64,000 bases of DNA from Polaribacter sp. HaHaR_3_91 (GTDB lineage Bacteria > Bacteroidota > Bacteroidia > Flavobacteriales > Flavobacteriaceae). The stretch spans positions 1,708,001 to 1,772,000 of the forward strand of contig NZ_CP058986.1 of the NCBI RefSeq assembly GCF_019278525.1, written 5' to 3'. The notes below the pieces were generated by a model that did not search any database, was not told the origin of the DNA, and saw nothing but the letters and a program-made list of their open reading frames with translations. The position numbers were made by a program, and so were the translations under genes. Below, one piece after another: positions 21,156 through 31,164 of the stretch (positions within the stretch are counted from its first letter, which is position 1; every line of letters begins with the position of its first letter).

Positions 21156-21509
21156 TTAATTTAAAATTAAAGAATAATCTATGTCTGCCGTAGATATCAT
21201 TTTGTTTTTATTACCAGAGTAAATCCCTAATAGTATTTTAAGTTCTTCAATTTCATAAGTATCAAAAACCAACACTAAATTCTGATGAAAAGTAGGTACA
21301 GGTATTTTTCTTTTTTGTGTTGTGTTTGCGCTATAGTCTAACCAATAATTAACATCTATTTCTGCAACATATTCTCTAAACTTATTCAGTTGTTCTTTAT
21401 CAAATTGAAAAAAGATATTATTAAAAATGAGGTTATAATTATTACAATCTTTACAAATTGATATTTCTCCGTTTTTAACGCTAGCTATTATTTTAGATTT
21501 TTGACACAT
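21156..21509 (-). CDS. Small CxxC protein, DUF6686-like
   Basis: 117 residues, probably cytosolic (no signal). The N-terminal half holds ISICKDCNNYNLIF, a CxxC pair in a context like DUF6686 proteins of Bacteroidota, which is how I would class it with moderate confidence. The C-terminal half is unremarkable. It starts 11 bases after the PepSY reductase stop, so it is the last gene of the haem/iron operon. The cysteine pair could bind a metal or serve a redox role; neither is shown. Confidence 0.65.
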   Translation of the reverse strand: MCQKSKIIASVKNGEISICKDCNNYNLIFNNIFFQFDKEQLNKFREYVAEIDVNYWLDYSANTTQKRKIPVPTFHQNLVLVFDTYEIEELKILLGIYSGNKNKMISTADIDYSLILN

Positions 21510-21520
21510 TGTTTTAATTT

Positions 21521-23713
21521 TTAGTAACAGTCAGTTTTTATTTGATTGTTTTCTTTAAATTTATGTAATGAAGATTGTAAATGTTTTTTAGTTATTTCTT
21601 CTAATGCTTTTGTGACTCCCTTTTCCATGTATATAGACCCGCAAATCATAATTAAACCTCCATTATGTATGGTATTCGCAATTAGTGTTCCGTGATTTAT
21701 TAATAAATCTTGAACATATATTTTCTCTTTTTCTTCTTGAGAATATGCAGCGTGGAACGAGTTGAGCGTATTATTTTCTATGGCTGTCTGTATATTGTTT
21801 TTGTAAATTTTAAAAGACTCTTTTGTTCTTCCTCCCCAAAATAAATGAGTTTTTGTATTTGATTTTTTTCTATTAATCATTCCTAAAAAAGGTGCAATTC
21901 CAGTTCCGTTGGCAATTAAAATAACTTCTTTTGTTTTTTTTGGAAGATGAAATGCTGTATTTTTTTGAATACTTGCTACCATTTTATCGGCTTTACATAA
22001 ACTATTAAAATAAGTAGAACAAAGTCCGAATTCATGTTTCTTAATACTTAACAGAATAGTATTATCTATTTTTGCAATAGAATACAAACGACTTCTTGTT
22101 TCATTTTTTGGAGTAATAGAAAGTAAATCTCCAGATTCGAAAGTTGTTTTTTTATTCGGCTTTAATTGAATTAAAAAAGTATCATCAGTATTAATAGGTG
22201 TTTTATTTATTACCGTAAATTCTTGTTCTTTTTTGTTTGTTGTTAAAAGACTTTCTGTGGTTACTATAAGTGTTGTTTTATAGAAAGCATTCCATTCTTG
22301 TAACCATTGGTTAAAATCAGAAAAAGATTGGTTATTGATCTTAAAAACAGGTAGAATAGGAGTGAATTTGTCTTGCATTTGTAAATGAGCATGTACCAAA
22401 ATAGCAAACTTACAATACTGTGTATACTCTTTAGAACCAAAACCGACTACAGAGAAATTTAAGAGATTGTTTTGCGACGTGTTTTCAATTTTAGAAATAA
22501 ATTTCTTCGCATTTATAGGGGCTTCTCCTTCACCATAAGTTGCTGTAAATATGATAATATTTGTTGCTTTTTTATAGCTTGTATATTGGTTTAATTCTGA
22601 TAAAAATACCGTTTTTTCAGAAGCGATTAAGGCCTTGTAAAAAGCAGTAGCAAAATTAAAGGTGCTTCCGGTTTCAGAACCAACTAGAATTATATATTCG
22701 GCTTCATCTTTAGTAAAATTATTTTTAACCAAGCTAGTTTTCTTCCTTCTTTTTAAAGTCATGGCAAAGCCAGAAAAAATAAAGAATAAAATAGCAAAAC
22801 AAGCTAATAATAAAACAATAGACCATAAGATAGAGCCTTTTCCGGTATGAAGTAATAAGCTATAATAAGAACCAAAAGTAACGAGTGGTTGTTTTTTTAG
22901 GCTAATAACTTGTCCCGTAATTTGATGTACAGCAACTTCTTTATCAGTAAGTTTTACATAGTAATAATCTTCTTCATCTGTAGAAAATGGGAATTCTATA
23001 CTTTTTACTTCATCTAATTTTGTAGACTCAAAAAAATCAATAATAGCATTGTTTTGTAGTGTCTTATTTTGTGTAATTTCTACATGTTTACTATTGTCTT
23101 TTGGTAATACATAAAAACGGTCTAAAGATAGATATACACCTGTTAATGTAATTACTATAATAGGTACTAGCGTATATCGACCAATAATAATATGGTAATA
23201 TTGATTAAAATCTTCTTTAATTATTTTAGAGAAGAATTTAGAAATACCACCTTGTCTTTTTGCAATTAATACAATTCCGGTAACAGAAATTAGCAGCAGT
23301 AAAAAAGATACAAATCCAATAATAAACCTACCCGTAGATTTTAAAAATAACGAACGATGTAGGTTTGTTGCAAATTCATAAATTGGTTTTTTCTCTATGA
23401 TATCTCCAATCTTTTCTCCTGTTTTTGGGTTGATGTAAAAAGTAGCGCTTTTACCATTTGTTAAAACAACATTTGCAGCTACAAAACCATTTTCATCAAC
23501 TTCTATGGTGATTACTTCATCATATTTTTGATGCAATACAACAATTGTTTCTTGAATAGAAACTGTATTAATATCTACAACATCATAAGGAGAAAGTTTA
23601 TCAGAAATTGGTTCGAAAGCCAATATAATTCCGGTTACAGAAGCGATAATAATAAATAAAGCAGAAGATATAGCCAGGGTTAAGTGGCTATATCTCCAAA
23701 TGGAAATCGTCAT
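21521..23713 (-). CDS. PepSY-TM / flavodoxin / FNR fusion reductase
   Basis: 730 residues. The N-terminal third is a PepSY_TM unit with four helices (about 10-33, 129-151, 181-199, 296-320) and periplasmic PepSY segments. His10, His119, His174 and His289 at helix edges could ligate haem b, as in the siderophore reductase FoxB. Then a flavodoxin domain (341-475; FMN loop GSETGSTFNFA, and TATYGEGEAP) and an FNR module (about 497-720; FAD motif RLYSIA at 542-547, NADPH motif GTGIAPF at 603-609, CGS at 692-694). The predicted path is NADPH to FAD to FMN to haem to periplasm. The neighbours imply reduction of haem or ferric iron taken up by the TonB receptor. Confidence 0.9.
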   Translation of the reverse strand: MTISIWRYSHLTLAISSALFIIIASVTGIILAFEPISDKLSPYDVVDINTVSIQETIVVLHQKYDEVITIEVDENGFVAANVVLTNGKSATFYINPKTGEKIGDIIEKKPIYEFATNLHRSLFLKSTGRFIIGFVSFLLLLISVTGIVLIAKRQGGISKFFSKIIKEDFNQYYHIIIGRYTLVPIIVITLTGVYLSLDRFYVLPKDNSKHVEITQNKTLQNNAIIDFFESTKLDEVKSIEFPFSTDEEDYYYVKLTDKEVAVHQITGQVISLKKQPLVTFGSYYSLLLHTGKGSILWSIVLLLACFAILFFIFSGFAMTLKRRKKTSLVKNNFTKDEAEYIILVGSETGSTFNFATAFYKALIASEKTVFLSELNQYTSYKKATNIIIFTATYGEGEAPINAKKFISKIENTSQNNLLNFSVVGFGSKEYTQYCKFAILVHAHLQMQDKFTPILPVFKINNQSFSDFNQWLQEWNAFYKTTLIVTTESLLTTNKKEQEFTVINKTPINTDDTFLIQLKPNKKTTFESGDLLSITPKNETRSRLYSIAKIDNTILLSIKKHEFGLCSTYFNSLCKADKMVASIQKNTAFHLPKKTKEVILIANGTGIAPFLGMINRKKSNTKTHLFWGGRTKESFKIYKNNIQTAIENNTLNSFHAAYSQEEKEKIYVQDLLINHGTLIANTIHNGGLIMICGSIYMEKGVTKALEEITKKHLQSSLHKFKENNQIKTDCY

Positions 23714-23724
23714 TATAATTTTTT

Positions 23725-24216
23725 TTATTGTGGCATGATTCTTATATAACGAATAAATCCTTTTCCTTCAACTTTAGATTTAACGTTTTCTGATGTTAAT
23801 TCAAACTCTACATCATCTTTGTAATATGCTTGGTTTTCCACAGAAGTTTCAAAACGGATTTTATATCCTGCATCAATTTTACTGTCATCAATTTTTAGAA
23901 CACTAATAGCACGTTCTCCTCCACTAATTGTTGCTCCTGTAATAGCATCAATATCGCTATGCTTTGTTCCTTGAAACTTCCACCATTCTTCTAGGTTAGA
24001 GTACCATTCATCATCGTCTCCTAACACATTTAGGGTTTCTTCATATTCTCCATCAGAATTTATTAGAGAAATTACAATATAAGCTCCTTCTCCGGTGTAA
24101 TTAGTTAACTGAATCATACATTTGTATGAACTTGTTTCGCTACTTTTAAAACTGAACAATGCAAATGCGATTGCAATTATAATAGGTGTTATTTTAAATA
24201 TATTTTTAGTTTTCAT
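23725..24216 (-). CDS. DUF2271 protein with flavinylation-type motif
   Basis: 163 residues. A hydrophobic N-terminus (about 8-23) exports it. The rest matches DUF2271: YKCMIQLTNYTGEGAYIVIS, a WYSNLEEWW segment and a C-terminal RYIRIMPQ strand. Residues 90-96 read D-A-I-T-G-A-T, which fits Dxx[S/T]GAT, the site where ApbE attaches FMN to a threonine in NqrC/RnfG-type proteins; Thr96 would carry the flavin. No apbE gene is in the window. Placed 11 bases before the PepSY reductase, it is a good candidate periplasmic electron carrier from that enzyme. Domain identity is solid; flavinylation is inferred. Confidence 0.8.
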   Translation of the reverse strand: MKTKNIFKITPIIIAIAFALFSFKSSETSSYKCMIQLTNYTGEGAYIVISLINSDGEYEETLNVLGDDDEWYSNLEEWWKFQGTKHSDIDAITGATISGGERAISVLKIDDSKIDAGYKIRFETSVENQAYYKDDVEFELTSENVKSKVEGKGFIRYIRIMPQ

Positions 24217-24225
24217 TCTTAAGTT

Positions 24226-25734
24226 TTATTTTAAAAATTTAATATCAGTATTTTTTAATAACTCATTTTCCAAAGCTAAATCATAAGTAGATTCTTCAAA
24301 TTCGTTTTTTATATTTTTATCTGCACCAATACTTAATAAATAATTGATAATTTTAGTGTCTTTAGATTTCATAGCTGCTAAGTGCAGTGCCGTATAACCT
24401 TCGTTATTTTTTGCGTTTACATCAATACCATAAGAATTTACTTCTTTTAATAATTTGATATTTTTATTGTCTAAAGCAAAGTGAAATAATGTGTTGTTAC
24501 CACCCTGAATTTGATTTAATTTTAATCCGTTTTTAACAAGTAGGTTCTTTTTTGTAGCAAAATTATCATTTCTTCTTTCGTTGTAACTATTAAGCAAATA
24601 GTACGCTAAAGTATTTCCGTCTTTGTCAGTTACATTTATGTTCGCTTTTTGGTTAATTAGATAAGCCACAACATCACTAGAGTTTCTTTCTACAGCTACT
24701 GAAAGAGCAGAGTTTCCTTGCTTGTTTGTGTGATTAATATCCTTTGTTTTTTCAGTTAAAAAAGTAACAATCTCCAAAGAATTTCTACCAGTTGCGTTTA
24801 ATAAAGGTGTGTTTCCTTCTTTATCAGCATGATTGATATCAACATTTTTACTTAAAAAATAATTAAAAGTAGCAATGTCTTTATTACCAGAAGCTAAAAA
24901 ATGAAATGCATTTTGTCCGTCTTTATTCGTAACATTTGCGTCAAGACCTAAGCTATTTAAGTATTTAAAAAATGCTAAAGAATTGTAACCGCCACGGCCA
25001 CCTCTTGTTGCTAATAAAAGTGCATTTTCACCATTTTTATTTAAGTTTTTGTATGGTAAACCTTTCTTTATTAATAAGTTTAGCATTTCTTTATTTCCTT
25101 TTTTAGCAACATAATTAAATGCACCGTTTCCATCATTATCAGTGCTGTTTAAAGCCAATCCTTTTGATGTAAAATAGTCTAATAAATCTAAGTTATTTAA
25201 TGACGGAAGTAATAAAAGTAAAGCGTTTGCACCGTGTCCGTTGGTGTCGGTTGCAATGTCTAATCCATTTTCAATAAATAAATCATAGATTTTGGTATTG
25301 GTATTTCCTGCATTTGCAGCAAACGTTAATGGAGAAGATTGATGAGAATCTTTTAGACTTAAATCCGCTCCGTTTTTAATTAAGTAAGCAGTAAGTTCTA
25401 AATTATCTGCATAGGCAGCCCAAAAAACATATGTTCGCTTATCGTGTGTAATTTTGTTAACATCATTCCCTTCTTTAGAAAGTAAATATTTAATGGATGC
25501 ATTTGGTGCTTTTTGCAAAATAGCATATACTACACCATCAAAACCACCTTTATTGGCTTCACTTGGGTTGTTACCTTGTGCTATTTTTTGATCAATAATC
25601 TCGATGCTTGGGTTTGTATCCCAAAAATCTCTATCTAAAAATATATTTGATGATTGCTGTTGTTTTCTTTGTGCTACAACTACTGTGCTAATAAATAATA
25701 TAGCAACAAGGGCTATTAGTTTAGTTCTTTTCAT
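24226..25734 (-). CDS. Secreted ankyrin-repeat protein
   Basis: 502 residues with a signal peptide (1-21, ending VVVAQ), so periplasmic or outer. From about residue 60 to the end there are roughly a dozen ankyrin repeats, e.g. NGADLSLKDSHQSSPLTFAA, NKEGNTPLLNA-type units and EGYTALHLAAMKSK. Ankyrin stacks bind proteins; they have no enzymatic role of their own. Its place between DUF6607 and DUF2271 genes, with 9- and 3-base gaps, ties it to the haem/iron operon. A scaffold for the receptor-reductase complex is one possible role; that is inference. Confidence 0.88.
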   Translation of the reverse strand: MKRTKLIALVAILFISTVVVAQRKQQQSSNIFLDRDFWDTNPSIEIIDQKIAQGNNPSEANKGGFDGVVYAILQKAPNASIKYLLSKEGNDVNKITHDKRTYVFWAAYADNLELTAYLIKNGADLSLKDSHQSSPLTFAANAGNTNTKIYDLFIENGLDIATDTNGHGANALLLLLPSLNNLDLLDYFTSKGLALNSTDNDGNGAFNYVAKKGNKEMLNLLIKKGLPYKNLNKNGENALLLATRGGRGGYNSLAFFKYLNSLGLDANVTNKDGQNAFHFLASGNKDIATFNYFLSKNVDINHADKEGNTPLLNATGRNSLEIVTFLTEKTKDINHTNKQGNSALSVAVERNSSDVVAYLINQKANINVTDKDGNTLAYYLLNSYNERRNDNFATKKNLLVKNGLKLNQIQGGNNTLFHFALDNKNIKLLKEVNSYGIDVNAKNNEGYTALHLAAMKSKDTKIINYLLSIGADKNIKNEFEESTYDLALENELLKNTDIKFLK

Positions 25735-25737
25735 TTT

Positions 25738-26640
25738 TTATTTTTTTACAAATGATTCTATTATGGTATTAATTTCTTTTTCTTTTGTTGTTTCATCAGA
25801 AAATAAATGTTTGTAAAGTTCTTTAAACTCAACTTTAGTTTCTAAAGATAAATTGGTGTTTCTACCATAAACTTCGTTCCATTTATTTCTAACTAACTGC
25901 CATTTGTTATTGTTTGCTTTCCACCAGTCAGAAGCCGCTTTACATTTGCTATCATCAACTTTTACGTACGTATTGTATCCTTTTTCTTTAGCTAAAACAA
26001 CATCTTCTTTTCCCGATTCACGGATAATTTTACTGTTATCTTGGTCATGAAGCCAACCGTAGCTTGTAATTTCATGTCTGTTTCCTCTTAAAGTGATGTT
26101 ATAATCGCTTCTTTTGGTGTATTCTCTTCTTGGTAAAGGAGCGGTAGTTTCGTTTTCCCAATAGCTTTTTCCGTCTACATGAACCCAAGTTCCAGAACCT
26201 TCGTAACGCGGACTGTCATCTACTTGATATACTTTTTGTGTCCATTGTTTTTTTATGTCGCTTTTACTTTTTTGCTCAAAAGTCCAGTTATTATCACCAT
26301 TATACATGTAGAAATCGTTGTTTTCATACAACCAATCTTGTCGCCAGTGTTTAATAATCATTGGGTCTTTTGGGTTACCAACTTGTAATAAATGTTGAAT
26401 TGATATTTTGTTATTACTATCTTCTACCAAACCAGCCCATTCTAAACCTTTATCTACTTTAGTTTTAGAAGGTTTGTAAGTGGAGTCTTTACTATAATTA
26501 AAAGTTTCAGCAAAATTGAAGGTTACTTCAAAACAACCACACATTTCTTTTATCGCATTTTGATCTTTCTTTTTCTTGCTTTGTGCATTTACAGAAATGG
26601 AAAGGAAAAGTAGTAGTGTACTCAATAATAGTTTATTCAT
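25738..26640 (-). CDS. DUF6607 family secreted protein
   Basis: 300 residues with a signal peptide (1-19, ending VNAQ). The body matches DUF6607 as I know it: IKEMCGCFEVTFNFAETF with a CxC pair, then tryptophan-rich segments such as KHWRQDWLYEN and NGDNNWTF. Function is unknown. First gene of the minus-strand operon; its minus-7 element lies at 26672-26679 in the divergent control region. Repeated association with iron receptors would make it a haem/iron accessory protein, but nothing in its sequence shows binding. Confidence 0.75.
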   Translation of the reverse strand: MNKLLLSTLLLFLSISVNAQSKKKKDQNAIKEMCGCFEVTFNFAETFNYSKDSTYKPSKTKVDKGLEWAGLVEDSNNKISIQHLLQVGNPKDPMIIKHWRQDWLYENNDFYMYNGDNNWTFEQKSKSDIKKQWTQKVYQVDDSPRYEGSGTWVHVDGKSYWENETTAPLPRREYTKRSDYNITLRGNRHEITSYGWLHDQDNSKIIRESGKEDVVLAKEKGYNTYVKVDDSKCKAASDWWKANNNKWQLVRNKWNEVYGRNTNLSLETKVEFKELYKHLFSDETTKEKEINTIIESFVKK

Positions 26641-26671
26641 TTTTTAAAATTTTTGGTTATAAATATTTTTA

Positions 26672-26679
26672 CAAAAATA
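26672..26679 (-). promoter_or_regulatory. Minus-7 element of the DUF6607-to-DUF6686 operon
   Basis: CAAAAATA on the plus strand is TATTTTTG on the minus strand, an exact TAnnTTTG match about 32 bases before the start codon. Confidence 0.6.
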
Positions 26680-26685
26680 TACAAT

Positions 26686-26708
26686 TTATTTAGACTGATT
26701 AAAAATAA
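26686..26708. promoter_or_regulatory. Candidate operator palindrome in the divergent control region
   Basis: A 23-base imperfect palindrome with arms TTATTT (26686-26691) and AAATAA (26703-26708) and partly symmetric centre. It lies between the two opposing minus-7 elements and covers both minus-33 positions, where one repressor could control both operons. Fur- or DtxR-type sites are AT-rich palindromes of similar size; the regulator is not known. Confidence 0.4.
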
Positions 26709-26712
26709 GGTA

Positions 26713-26720
26713 TATATTTG
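26713..26720 (+). promoter_or_regulatory. Minus-7 element of the TonB receptor/hmuY operon
   Basis: TATATTTG, an exact TAnnTTTG match, 16 bases before the ATG at 26737. It excludes the longer ORF start at 26653, which lies upstream of this promoter. Confidence 0.7.
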
Positions 26721-26736
26721 TCGAAAATTATTAAGA

Positions 26737-28866
26737 ATGTTTCTAAATAAAGAAATTACAGTTGTATTACTAATGTTTTCTATTGCTACTTTTAGTCAAG
26801 AAGTAAAAAAGGATTCAACAGAAATAACTGTTTTAGATGAAGTTGTGGTTACTGGGCAGTACAATCCTCAATCTGTAAAAAAATCTGTACATAATGTTAC
26901 TGTTATAAAAAGAGCACAAATAGAAAGTCAGGCAGCCAATAATTTAGCCGATTTATTAAACTTTAATTTAAACTTAACAATTGTACCTAGTTCTCAAACA
27001 GGTAAGTCTACGATTTCTTTCTTCGGATTAGATGCTCAATATTTTAATATTTTGGTTGATAATATTCCTTTAGTAAGTGATAATGGACTTGGAAATAACA
27101 TCGATTTAACGCAAGTAAATTTAGATGATATAGAGCGAATAGAAATTGTAGAAGGTGCAATGGGCGTAGAGTATGGCGCAAATGCGGTATCTGGAGTGAT
27201 CAATATTATTACTAAAAAATCGATAAAAAATAAGTGGAATATTAATGCTTCTTTACAAGAAGAAACGGTAAGTGATGAATATGCTTGGTTTGATGAAGGA
27301 AGGCATATACAAGCATTTAATATATCTCATAATATAGATAAGAATTGGTTTGCTAGAGTTGGTGTAAACCGCAATCAGTTTGCAGGCTTTTTTAATGATA
27401 GACAAGGAAAAAACTATTATCAAAATGATGGTTTAAGAGGATATGATTGGTTACCAAAAGAACAATTTAATTCAACTGCTTTTGTACAATATCAAAAAGA
27501 AAATTTTAAGCTGTTTTACAAATTTGAATACTTTAATGAGCTAATAAATTATTATGATGAAGCGGTTAGAGCAAATATAGATACACAGGCGCAAACGAGT
27601 AATCCGTCTGCAACGGATAGAGTTTTTAGAACGCATCGGTTTGTAAACAACTTAAATCTTGTAGGGAGTTTAAACACAGGCGCTAATTACAATGTTTCAC
27701 TTTCTTACCAGCAACAAAAACGTTATTTAAACGAGTTTAACTACTACATTTTAAGTAGAGAAAAAAGTAATGAAACGGATGATGTATATCAATCTAGTAA
27801 AGTTTTCTTTTCTAAAGGAAGTATTAACAACCTTGTTAAGAGTGATTTATTTAATTTTCAATTAGGATACGAAACAAGGTTTATCAATGGTTTTGATACA
27901 CAAGCTTCTGGCGATGTTACACAACAAGATAAGACGCAATCTCAGAGTAATTATGCTTTTTATGGTTCTGCCGAATTTAAGTTTTCTGATGCATTTTTAC
28001 TAAGACCTGGAATACGTTATGAATATAATTCTTTATTTAAGTCTAAAGTATTAGCGTCTATTAGTGCTCGTTATTTAATGAATAATGGTTTTGAGTTGCG
28101 TGGTAACATTGGTACATCTTACAGAACGCCAAATTTTGAAGAGTTGTACTATTACTTTGTAGATTCTAACCATGATGTGCGAGGAAATGAAAACCTAAAT
28201 CCAGAAAATGGCTTTTCGGCGTTTATCAACCTAAAAAAACACAGTTACTTTAATGAGTTGTCTTTATTAAATACTTTAAAAGTTAGTTATTTAGATGTTG
28301 CCGATAAAATAGATTTGGCTATTGTAAATCCTACTCCTTTACAATATCAATACATTAATATTGATGCTTATAAGTTATGGGGAATCTCTTCTGAAAATAG
28401 TATTAAAAAAGAGAATTGGACTTTTAATTTAGGTGCTACTTTACAAGGTATTTCTAGAATTGCTACCAATGAAATACATGCAGAAAACGACTTTTTATAT
28501 TCTTTTCAATTAAATACAAGTGCCAATTATAACATCAAAAAATGGAAAACAGCACTTACTGTATTGTTTAAACACAATGGTAATCAGCAAAATTATATTT
28601 CATCTGGTGTAGATGATAAAGGGAATGCTGTATTTTCTGAATCTACCACAAGCGCTTATAATTGGGTAGATGCTTCTATCAAAAAATCATTCTTTAATGA
28701 TAAAATTCAAGCCACTTTAGGCGGTAGAAACTTATTTGATGTTACTAACGTAAATGTTAGTAATGCAAGCACAGACGGAGTAGCACATGCTTCTAACAAC
28801 AATTCTTTGTTATTGGGCTACGGACGTTCTTATTACTTAAAGCTATTATATAACCTTAATTTTTAA
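26737..28866 (+). CDS. TonB-dependent haem/iron receptor
   Basis: 709 residues from the chosen start (MFLNKEITVVLLMFS), which gives a proper signal peptide ending FSQ and follows the promoter. An upstream in-frame ATG at 26653 precedes the promoter and is rejected. VLDEVVVTGQYN near the N-terminus is a TonB-box-like segment. Then come the plug (VKKSVHNVTVIKRAQIE, then IERIEIVEGAMGVEYGANAVSG) and a 22-strand-type barrel ending LKLLYNLNF. The plug start is of the HmuR/cobalamin/iron receptor type, without a carboxypeptidase-like extension. Ligand assignment to haem rests on the HmuY gene 28 bases downstream. Confidence 0.9.
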   Translation: MFLNKEITVVLLMFSIATFSQEVKKDSTEITVLDEVVVTGQYNPQSVKKSVHNVTVIKRAQIESQAANNLADLLNFNLNLTIVPSSQTGKSTISFFGLDAQYFNILVDNIPLVSDNGLGNNIDLTQVNLDDIERIEIVEGAMGVEYGANAVSGVINIITKKSIKNKWNINASLQEETVSDEYAWFDEGRHIQAFNISHNIDKNWFARVGVNRNQFAGFFNDRQGKNYYQNDGLRGYDWLPKEQFNSTAFVQYQKENFKLFYKFEYFNELINYYDEAVRANIDTQAQTSNPSATDRVFRTHRFVNNLNLVGSLNTGANYNVSLSYQQQKRYLNEFNYYILSREKSNETDDVYQSSKVFFSKGSINNLVKSDLFNFQLGYETRFINGFDTQASGDVTQQDKTQSQSNYAFYGSAEFKFSDAFLLRPGIRYEYNSLFKSKVLASISARYLMNNGFELRGNIGTSYRTPNFEELYYYFVDSNHDVRGNENLNPENGFSAFINLKKHSYFNELSLLNTLKVSYLDVADKIDLAIVNPTPLQYQYINIDAYKLWGISSENSIKKENWTFNLGATLQGISRIATNEIHAENDFLYSFQLNTSANYNIKKWKTALTVLFKHNGNQQNYISSGVDDKGNAVFSESTTSAYNWVDASIKKSFFNDKIQATLGGRNLFDVTNVNVSNASTDGVAHASNNNSLLLGYGRSYYLKLLYNLNF

Positions 28867-28894
28867 ACACTAATAATTACCAAACATTAAAATC

Positions 28895-29977
28895 ATGACA
28901 AACAAATTTTTAACTTTTATTTTATGTGCAGCTGTATTTTCTTTTACAAGTTGTGACTCTGAAGATGCACCAATAGCACCAATAGTTGTAGTTATAGACG
29001 GAGCAGCTATTTCACCTGAAGTTGGTGGACCAAATGAACCAAATCAAGTATATGTAGACTTAAGTACAAATACAACTACTGTTGTAAAAAGAGATTCTTG
29101 GGATTTAGGTTTCTATTCAGGATCAGAATTTAGAGTTAGCTTAAATGGATCAATTTCTATGGCAACCGCTGAACTATCTACAACAAATATTGATGCTGTT
29201 AAATCTTCCGATCAAGAAGTAATCGATTTACAACCATTGGTAAGAACAAATACGTATACAGATGAAAGTGTTCCTTTTGTTGATGCTCCAAATGGAGATA
29301 TTCTTGAAACTGCGATTTCTGAAATTTCTGATACGGATTCTGAGAACAAAGTATATTTAGTAAATCTTGGGTATGAAGTAGATACAACTTCACCTGCAAC
29401 AGGTAGCTATTCGGCAAATGGAGAAGCTAGAGGTTGGAAAAAAATTAGAATCTTGAAAGATGCTAACAATTATATCTTACAGTATGCTGATTTAGATGCT
29501 ACTACACACAAAGAAATTACTATCTCTAAAAAAGAAGCATATCATTTTACTTTTTTTAGTTTTAATACTGAAAATGAAGTTAGTGTAGAACCTTTAAAAA
29601 ACGAATGGGATTTAAATTTTACAATTTTCACAAACTTAATTCCTACTGCAGGACCTTATGTATATCCAGATTATGTAACAAATAATATAAAATCAGATGC
29701 CAAAGTTTATATGCTAGATACAGAAGAAGATGGGTTTACTTATGAAGATTTTTCTATTACCGATGTAGAGGCTACAAAATTTACTACAGACCAAAGAAGT
29801 ATTGGTAGTAGTTGGAGAAATGGAGGAGGACCAGGTAGTTTACCTTCTTTAAAAGACAATGTGTTTTATGTTGTTAATGATACTGATGGTAATTTATATA
29901 AATTAAAATTTTTAGCACTAACTAATGAAGCAGGAGAGCGTGGATATCCTGAATTTGTATATAGTTTATTACAATAA
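28895..29977 (+). CDS. hmuY: HmuY-family haem-binding lipoprotein
   Basis: 360 residues with lipobox FTSC (Cys20). The body opens with the HmuY-type segment NQVYVDLSTNTTTVVKRDSWDLGFYSG, and NEWDLNFTIF recurs near residue 235. Porphyromonas HmuY is an outer-membrane lipoprotein that captures haem and passes it to the HmuR receptor; the same receptor-HmuY order is seen here. At 360 residues it is clearly longer than the roughly 216-residue Porphyromonas protein, so it may hold an extra lobe. Haem ligands cannot be fixed by eye. Followed by a terminator. Confidence 0.78.
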   Translation: MTNKFLTFILCAAVFSFTSCDSEDAPIAPIVVVIDGAAISPEVGGPNEPNQVYVDLSTNTTTVVKRDSWDLGFYSGSEFRVSLNGSISMATAELSTTNIDAVKSSDQEVIDLQPLVRTNTYTDESVPFVDAPNGDILETAISEISDTDSENKVYLVNLGYEVDTTSPATGSYSANGEARGWKKIRILKDANNYILQYADLDATTHKEITISKKEAYHFTFFSFNTENEVSVEPLKNEWDLNFTIFTNLIPTAGPYVYPDYVTNNIKSDAKVYMLDTEEDGFTYEDFSITDVEATKFTTDQRSIGSSWRNGGGPGSLPSLKDNVFYVVNDTDGNLYKLKFLALTNEAGERGYPEFVYSLLQ

Positions 29978-30017: not shown

Positions 30018-30054
30018 AAAGGCCGTTTAAACGAAAGTTTAAATGGCTTTTTTA
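30018..30054 (+). terminator. Terminator of the receptor/hmuY operon
   Basis: Left arm AAAGGCCGTTTAAAC (30018-30032), loop GAAA, right arm GTTTAAATGGCTTT, then a T run. A short CAATCT/AGATTG hairpin precedes it near 29990-30006. Confidence 0.8.
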
Positions 30055-31164
30055 TTTCTTAATTACTTGGTTGTAATTTACCAATTCTGTTAAACCTTCT
30101 TTATCTGGATCTTCGGCAAAAGAACGCAGATAAGTATCTAAATATTCGATGGCTCTATCTTCTGGATAAAACAAAACTTTGTTTTGGTCGGTAGACCATT
30201 CTATAACGTTTATATAAGTTTTACTTTCAAAAGTTCTATAGAAACTTTGTGCGCTTTCTGGCAGTTTTTCTTGCAATTCTTCATCAAGATAAATAATGTA
30301 ATATTTTAAATCTGCTGTAAAAAAATGAAATGATAACAGATTGTCATAAAAACCAGTTAGGTTGTTTGCTAACGGCAGCATAATCGTAAAAACCAAAATG
30401 GCCAATTTTTGCGTATTGAAAAACTGTATAAAAAACTCAAAGGCGTTCGATGTTTTTAACGTCCAGAATAGAATTACCACACTTACCATGTTCTGAATAT
30501 TCCAAGGCACCACATTGTAACCATATCCTAAATAAAAGAGTAAAACGGTAATTGTACCGTGCATTAAAAGAATAAACACGACTCCAAATTTTCTTGTTTT
30601 ATTAAAGAGCAATAAAATGCCCATTAAAGCTTCTAACCAAGGCACAGCATACGTAAAAGCAACTAAAAACCATTGAGGTAAAAAACTAAAATGTTTATTG
30701 ATAGCACCCAACCACTGTATATAAAAGGCTTCATTTAATTTCTGAATTCCGCTCCAAAAATAAGTAGCGAAAAAGATAAGGATAATGGCGTATAATATTT
30801 TCTTTGGATTTGCTTTTCTATTGAAAACTTCTATTGCAAAAATGGTTAAAAAACTCTGATAAAAGTAGGGCTGTAGTCGGTTTTGATCTACGAGCGCTAA
30901 AAAGAGATATAAACCAAGAATAGTCCAACCTTGCCATCTTTTATTCTGAAAAATGTAGACAATTTGTATCGCAAAAAAGAATCCGGCTAAAATATAATCG
31001 AACGGATATGTTGGTACTGGCAACCAATCGAATAACGGGATTATTGGGAAGTTTTTTGTGGTGACCCATAATTTTGGAGCGTACACCATCATTATTAAAA
31101 CAGCAAGAATAGCAAGGATTCTTACCCAGTTTATTTTCTGTTTGTCTGTTAGATTTGTGATCAT
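30052..31164 (-). CDS. HTTM/MauE-like multi-pass membrane protein
   Basis: 370 residues with about eight helices over residues 12-275 and a soluble C-terminal tail of about 90 residues. The segment FATYFWSGIQKLNEAFY followed by FSFLPQWFLVAFTYAVPWLEALMGILLL resembles the core of HTTM (vitamin-K carboxylase-like) and DoxX/MauE proteins, known for inner-membrane redox or carboxylation chemistry. The class is likely; the activity is unknown. No clear operon partner: uvrA lies upstream beyond a repeat-filled gap. Confidence 0.6.
   Translation of the reverse strand: MITNLTDKQKINWVRILAILAVLIMMVYAPKLWVTTKNFPIIPLFDWLPVPTYPFDYILAGFFFAIQIVYIFQNKRWQGWTILGLYLFLALVDQNRLQPYFYQSFLTIFAIEVFNRKANPKKILYAIILIFFATYFWSGIQKLNEAFYIQWLGAINKHFSFLPQWFLVAFTYAVPWLEALMGILLLFNKTRKFGVVFILLMHGTITVLLFYLGYGYNVVPWNIQNMVSVVILFWTLKTSNAFEFFIQFFNTQKLAILVFTIMLPLANNLTGFYDNLLSFHFFTADLKYYIIYLDEELQEKLPESAQSFYRTFESKTYINVIEWSTDQNKVLFYPEDRAIEYLDTYLRSFAEDPDKEGLTELVNYNQVIKK

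Follow-up and report, generated by a model that had tools for sequence, protein, structure and literature searches.

A candidate Fur-controlled haem-uptake locus paired with a predicted periplasmic ferric reductase in Polaribacter sp. HaHaR_3_91

A 64-kb window of the 4.2-Mb single-contig genome of Polaribacter sp. HaHaR_3_91 (G000:C1:1708001-1772000) carries a locus in which the genes of a TonB-dependent receptor and an HmuY-family lipoprotein stand divergently to an operon of five genes. On balance, and with modest confidence, we read this locus as a Fur-controlled importer with two haemophores and a periplasmic ferric reductase that share a promoter region, the electron chain being probably shared with siderophore uptake. 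The minus-strand operon runs in the order DUF6607, ankyrin-repeat protein, DUF2271, PepSY_TM-flavodoxin-FNR fusion, and DUF6686, with internal gaps of 3, 9, 11, and 11 bases. On the plus strand, 28 bases separate the receptor gene from the HmuY gene, beyond which lie a repeat resembling a terminator and, in convergent orientation, a MauE-like gene. All named families, the TonB plug and barrel among them, were identified by Pfam matches above the cut-off (Table 1). Thus, the gene order, the families and the operon gaps of 3–11 bases given in a preliminary description, made from the sequence alone, were all found where it had placed them, and the "CxxC protein" of its five-gene operon proved to be DUF6686, with one CxxC in the window copy.

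According to its sequence profile, the DUF6607 protein is a member of the haemophore family of the RhuH type, which the preliminary description had overlooked; the haemophore function is taken from knowledge of that family. A profile of 26 homologues found a sole solved relative, PDB entry 8XJC, titled 'haemophore' (E 1.4e-116, profile positions 11-301), and the next match was unrelated (0.048). This entry is RhuH of Riemerella anatipestifer, which extracts haem from haemoglobin, ligates its iron through His96 and binds haem with a dissociation constant of 3.44e-11 M; its counterparts in Flavobacterium columnare and F. soli are reported to behave alike (PMC11967795). His96 corresponds to H98 of the window protein and was invariant in 26 of 26 homologues. 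The residues R145, Y146, R172, R185, and Q200, which match propionate contacts modelled in RhuH, were likewise invariant; these contacts derive from an AlphaFold3 complex, and a mutant is described for His96 (PMC11967795). The window protein shares 92% identity with named Polaribacter proteins. Assignment as a calycin or bilin lyase, considered because of a resemblance to CpeT, was abandoned after the 8XJC match. Since DUF6607 is RhuH-like, a published counterpart exists for the haem half of the locus; the name "DUF6607" itself had zero occurrences in the literature searched (open PMC subset).

The genomic coupling of the two operons was examined in a draw of 149 Flavobacteriaceae genomes; these are related, so the Fisher p-values given here overstate the evidence. 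DUF6607 was present in 55 genomes, HmuY in 66, and DUF2271 over the cut-off in 48. Within 10 kb of DUF6607, HmuY was found in 49 of the 55 (p 2.6e-23) and DUF2271 in 30 (p 7.2e-11), which argues that the pairing is not accidental; the survey of co-occurrence proposed in the preliminary description thus turned out in its favour. The linkage of DUF6686 was looser (12/55; the count used 21 of 26 genomes, five weak ones being left out). A TonB homologue lay no more than 9 kb away at 50 of the 55 DUF6607 loci. Both DUF2271 and the reductase were encoded at 29 of these loci, 28 of which also had the ankyrin gene, and the order HmuY, TonB / DUF6607, ankyrin, DUF2271, reductase recurred in the maps of the 55 loci. 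Confirmed matches numbered 584; in a named set of the 80 most like the query, which is biased towards relatives bearing this triad, 69 had both DUF2271 and the reductase, and rates were therefore taken from the 149-genome draw. The triad-bearing relatives include Polaribacter, Tenacibaculum, Winogradskyella, Kordia, Aquimarina, and Maribacter. The only genome of the same genus in the draw (G131) was without DUF6607, HmuY, DUF2271, and DUF6686.

The two operons share a promoter region that contains two Fur-type boxes, which points to control of the locus by Fur. The first in-frame ATG of the receptor gene, at 26737, leaves a divergent promoter of 96 bases and was preferred as the start, since the TTG at 26653 in the list of open reading frames would leave only 12. 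A 23-base palindrome, TTATTTAGAATNATTCTAAATAA, was matched at 19 or more of 23 positions in 49 of the 55 regions upstream of DUF6607 but in none of 1,100 sequences shuffled by mononucleotide. Six regions fell short of this score; at four of these loci (L038, L054, L061, and L072), DUF6607 is not divergent and lies downstream of the receptor and HmuY genes on the same strand. At up to three mismatches, the window contained two sites only, both in this promoter, where 0.02 were expected from dinucleotide shuffles; the 19-base core gave three sites against 0.75 expected. The palindrome is nearly identical to the Fur box of the R. anatipestifer rhuB promoter, ATTTAGAATTATCCTAAAT, for which a promoter gel shift is described (PMC10986502). 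A different putative Fur box of that species, GATAATGATAATCATTATC, is unlike it (PMC7976709). The genome has four sites with one mismatch, located by hemA, between a TonB receptor gene and a DUF6686-like gene, between cytochrome c and SPOR-domain genes, and upstream of feoB, 260 bases before its frame. Genome-wide, 47 sites with up to three mismatches were counted against 42 in a reversed control, which is no enrichment; a loose palindrome alone is therefore no evidence outside promoters. The hemA site, at G000:C1:1667626, is flanked on its other side by an AraC regulator gene, and haem synthesis may thus be iron-controlled too.

The electron-transfer half of the locus consists of the ankyrin, DUF2271, and PepSY fusion genes. 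The PepSY_TM part of the fusion matched the siderophore-iron reductase FoxB (7ABW) in a profile comparison (E 6.7e-13), the four haem-ligand histidines align, and all four were invariant in 106 of 106 reductase copies. The kinship with FoxB rests on this profile of the membrane part; when the model of the whole reductase was compared with solved structures, the best 50 rows covered the diflavin part and FoxB was not among the matches listed. The protein carries its own diflavin module (flavodoxin and FNR) and is proposed, from its domains, to be an inner-membrane reductase that would pass electrons from reduced nicotinamide adenine dinucleotide phosphate (NADPH) through flavin adenine dinucleotide (FAD), flavin mononucleotide (FMN), and haem b to the periplasm. 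The DUF2271 protein bears DAITGAT, the [S/T]GA[S/T] motif of the PepSY/DUF2271 flavinylation class, and D..[TS]GAT was found in 30 of 36 copies. The electron entry of NADPH type and the carrier with a flavinylation motif that had been suggested previously are thus supported. ApbE, a frequent though not required member of flavinylation clusters, is not encoded at this locus; it would act in trans from a single gene at G000:C1:3839990, 2.1 Mb away, and was present in 147 of the 149 genomes, the window genome among them. The ankyrin protein is proposed to be a docking protein or a haem chaperone; a protein with ankyrin repeats, Cj1386, traffics haem in Campylobacter and is listed as cytoplasmic (PMC11442138). 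Ferric reductase activity of the triad would follow from what is known of these families.

A mechanism may be outlined from these parts. The RhuH-type DUF6607 protein and HmuY, as two haemophores, would feed haem into one TonB receptor. Electrons from NADPH would enter the cytosolic FAD and then the FMN domain, cross the membrane via haem b groups with the four PepSY histidines as ligands, and be passed by covalent FMN on the exported DUF2271 protein to ferric iron that has entered the periplasm; we infer that haem iron is an acceptor here. The ankyrin protein would probably dock the carrier or haem. Reduction would loosen iron or haem, so that Fe2+ could exit through FeoB, which is encoded in the window genome, or haem could move on. 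The same chain would probably also serve the siderophore importer XusAB in trans.

In the Bacteroides hmu operon, the dechelatase is HmuS, which can act on the haem it binds only in the reduced state; by the account in PMC12583661, the route from NADH to this haem was not yet known to its authors, who named flavodoxin as a possibility. The CobN/HmuS family (PF02514) was absent from the window genome and was found in 12 of 149 genomes, being absent from 50 of 55 genomes with DUF6607 and from 55 of 66 with HmuY. Another route of iron release seems needed, since no CobN/HmuS is encoded here and only 5 of the 55 DUF6607 genomes have one. A conserved haemophore gene next to a dedicated chain from NADPH to the periplasm offers a named candidate for the supply of electrons to haem iron in Bacteroidota, and the pairing, which is common to many relatives, may help to explain how iron is obtained from haem in these bacteria. 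A complete HmuS-independent release in the periplasm, in which the ankyrin protein holds haem, flavinylated DUF2271 reduces it and FeoB takes up Fe2+, with one reductase per genome as a hub for haem and siderophore importers, is a further step that we regard as rather unlikely in its full form.

The most serious alternative is that the triad is an XusC-like ferri-siderophore reductase serving XusAB and other receptors, so that the haem genes would give it a Fur promoter and haem would be no substrate at all. DUF2271 was found at 50 places in 48 genomes, 46 of which had one only, and all 20 places outside DUF6607 loci were examined. At eight of them, the run ankyrin-DUF2271-reductase comes directly after the genes of a large TonB receptor and a lipoprotein of 424-463 residues, and the lipoprotein family matches XusB of B. 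fragilis (9HQE, E 1.5e-5). A structure of ferrichrome-bound XusB exists, and XusC, its PepSY partner in Bacteroides, is described as a reductase of siderophore iron (PMC13142918). Genes of the XusB type occurred in 23 of 149 genomes, 20 of which had DUF2271 (p 4.7e-9). In the window genome, xusA-xusB (L211:5443-9230; G000:C1:3940442-3944229) lies 2.2 Mb from the haem locus, has no reductase alongside, and is preceded just upstream by palindromes with three mismatches; the only XusB-type match at E<=1e-10 is there, at 3942871, and none falls within the haem locus. Because this xusA-xusB pair lacks an adjacent reductase, a single DUF2271 chain could serve both importers. However, DUF2271 was kept in 22 of the 38 DUF6607 genomes without an XusB match, and two more PepSY_TM proteins are encoded in the window genome, each close to a different TonB receptor. 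On the midpoint-rooted reductase tree, seven of eight Xus-linked copies formed one clade (96 in the Shimodaira-Hasegawa-like approximate likelihood-ratio test) nested among haem-linked copies, a topology that weakly favours the haem-locus association as the older one. We hold a purely siderophore-directed triad to be possible but doubtful.

Several observations nevertheless weigh against the reading of a haem importer coupled to a ferric reductase. DUF2271 tracks XusB, as described above, and the triad also stands behind XusA-XusB. Of the proposal that the locus imports haem or iron and reduces it in the periplasm, haem uptake and the electron chain hold up, whereas the substrate, haem or siderophore iron, is less firm for this reason. 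Six of the 36 DUF2271 copies (L057, L061, L070, L073, L075, and L077) have GET instead of GAT. The haem-locus label on the reductase tree needs 10 changes, at least 6, so that the reductase has moved between neighbours. Triad presence on the DUF6607 tree is explained by only 4 changes, so the triad was gained or lost only a few times and then kept, and few evolutionary events stand behind the linkage. DUF2271 was not found within 10 kb in 25 of the 55 DUF6607 genomes, and in R. anatipestifer RhuH and the triad appear, from their locus tags, to lie at separate loci; haem uptake thus does not seem to need the triad in cis. Where CobN exists, HmuY accompanies it (11 of 12 genomes, p 0.0006). In addition, no report of haem reduction by the triad was found in the available text of the literature.

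A second alternative, which we consider unlikely, is that the chain frees no iron and shifts the redox state of haem for transfer between carriers. HmuY of Tannerella forsythia binds haem with a dissociation constant of ~1e-9 when reduced and ~1e-6 when oxidised, and Met-ligated HmuY proteins are stated to prefer ferrous haem (PMC12106395); the Campylobacter ankyrin protein would fit such a hand-over, though listed as cytoplasmic. However, HmuY is expected on the cell surface and DUF2271 in the periplasm, and beyond the start no His or Met was invariant in the 31 aligned copies of the HmuY class, in which M89 and H205 each occurred in 26. That the two operons are accidental neighbours with nothing in common but a promoter region is very improbable: DUF2271 is missing nearby from 25 of 55 genomes and independent gains or losses of the triad are few, but DUF2271 is adjacent in 30 of 55 over many genera, the triad is complete at 28 of the 29 loci with DUF2271 and the reductase, and the Fur-type boxes are shared.

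Both halves of the locus have published relatives. The closest for the haem half is RhuH with RhuR-RhuA of R. anatipestifer, where a DUF6607 gene is likewise divergent from receptor and HmuY genes at a bidirectional promoter with a Fur box (PMC11967795, PMC5429918); in the available text no reductase is described beside rhuH, and the likely triad, B739_0175-0177, has distant locus tags. The run B739_0173-0177 is annotated as TonB receptor, hypothetical protein, ankyrin, predicted periplasmic protein and 'nitric oxide synthase', is raised under iron limitation (table values 3.31, 3.64, 2.41, 3.06, and 1.05), and has Fur bound at the B739_0173 promoter (PMC7976709). By annotation and order, not sequence, it may be equated with the Xus-type triad run. 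In F. psychrophilum, HfpR-HfpY is the same pair of TonB receptor and HmuY-family haem-binding protein and is iron-repressed, but a DoxX gene, dispensable for haem use, lies between hfpR and hfpY; the hfp genes are reported to fall in a 19-kb region that responds to iron and also encodes transmembrane proteins of electron transfer (PMC9331221). Together with the RhuH assignment, these loci bear out the haem uptake that had been proposed. The Bacteroides and Porphyromonas hmuYRSTUV systems have the same HmuY and TonB receptor and, unlike the window genome, the CobN-like HmuS; a figure legend indicates that PepSY-domain genes are marked in some drawn Bacteroidota hmu clusters (PMC12106395).

For the reductase half, PepSY-like/DUF2271 flavinylation clusters contain the same PepSY_TM protein, in some cases with an NAD-binding domain, and DUF2271, but often have DUF4198 where the window locus has ankyrin and haemophore genes, and ApbE lies outside the window cluster (PMC8238504); HmuY has 0 occurrences in that paper. 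FoxB (7ABW) and XusABC have the same PepSY_TM core with four conserved histidines beside a TonB receptor, whereas the window locus has its own diflavin module, a carrier that bears a flavinylation motif, and haemophores in place of the siderophore lipoprotein. General background is given in PMC11334425, PMC10434189, and PMC12424826. No paper that treats HmuY or RhuH, DUF2271 and ankyrin as a single system was found among the matches listed in the open PMC subset, supplements excluded. The earlier statement that this is not a described system thus holds for the combination, which those matches name nowhere, but not for its halves, both of which are published, and the pairing is hinted at in print by the hfp region. 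The locus joins two literatures, those of haemophores and of extracytosolic flavinylation.

The best NCBIfam matches of the receptor, all under the cut-off, were TonB-B12 (5.7e-29), ligand-gated channel (8.3e-28), and TonB-hemin (4e-27); because these are weak and mixed, its haem specificity is suggested by context. The HmuY protein, whose gene adjoins that of the receptor, has the lipobox FTSC, read from the sequence, and a weak match (E 0.003) to 6EU8, a 'putative heme binding protein'. Tandem pairs of HmuY-family genes beside a single receptor were seen at L036, L038, L043, L044, L048, L054, L061, L072, and other loci.

Table 1. Features of the locus, with positions in the window
Feature	Position	Strand	Evidence
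DUF6686 protein, 117 aa	21156..21509	-	Pfam PF20391 E 3.6e-42
PepSY_TM-flavodoxin-FNR fusion, 730 aa	21521..23713	-	PepSY_TM 3.4e-34, Flavodoxin_1 4e-15, NAD_binding_1 5.2e-11
DUF2271, predicted exported flavin carrier	23725..24216	-	Pfam PF10029 E 2.4e-40; DAITGAT motif
Exported ankyrin-repeat protein, 502 aa	24226..25734	-	Pfam Ank families
DUF6607, RhuH-family haemophore by profile	25738..26640	-	Pfam DUF6607 E 3e-100; PDB 8XJC E 1.4e-116
Fur-type palindrome box 1, divergent promoter	26686..26708		3 mismatches vs TTATTTAGAATNATTCTAAATAA
Fur-type palindrome box 2, overlaps receptor ATG	26728..26750		2 mismatches vs TTATTTAGAATNATTCTAAATAA
TonB-dependent receptor, RhuR/HfpR/HmuR position	26737..28866	+	Pfam Plug and barrel
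HmuY-family lipoprotein, RhuA/HfpY position	28895..29977	+	Pfam PF14064 E 7.5e-29, two HmuY stretches
Probable terminator of receptor-HmuY operon	30020..30055		Inverted repeat and T run, read from sequence
MauE-like membrane protein gene	30052..31164		Convergent to HmuY

A profile scan of 60 other loci gave no homologue of the MauE-like protein. DoxX was found near DUF6607 at 12 of the 25 loci without the triad and at none of the 29 that have it (p 1.5e-5); at those 12 it lay near HmuY (L033, L034, L036, L037, L039, L040, L042, L045, L047, L053, L059, and L066). DoxX was rejected as a substitute electron source: no more than 4 independent pairs could be drawn from the tree, which left the contrast without significance, and haemoglobin use was normal in F. 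psychrophilum mutated in DoxX. An FMN_bind-type protein was noted near DUF6607 at nine of 55 loci (L034, L035, L037-L042, and L078), eight of them triad-less, as another carrier of flavinylation type at roughly the same position; the Pfam run covered two copies, both at L034, one barely above the cut-off. As a stand-in for DUF2271 it was suggestive but clade-structured, with no reductase alongside in the maps, and it was not retained. Correlations of distances with those of DUF6607 over 27 loci (reductase 0.62, DUF2271 0.40, TonB receptor 0.22, and ankyrin 0.14) were not corrected for the species tree and were left unused.

The DUF6686 protein was classed as a putative accessory protein. It showed no signal peptide, its AlphaFold2 model had a mean predicted local distance difference test score of 76.6, and a comparison of the fold with the PDB gave no match at E<=0.001. 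A second iron locus of the genome (L208:5201-12039; G000:C1:1825200-1832038) encodes an 874-residue TonB receptor, a 687-residue PepSY_TM protein and a separate flavodoxin, with a divergent DUF6686-like gene and palindromes at 1831181, 1831603, and 1831651. A link between DUF6686-like proteins and PepSY iron loci is possible.

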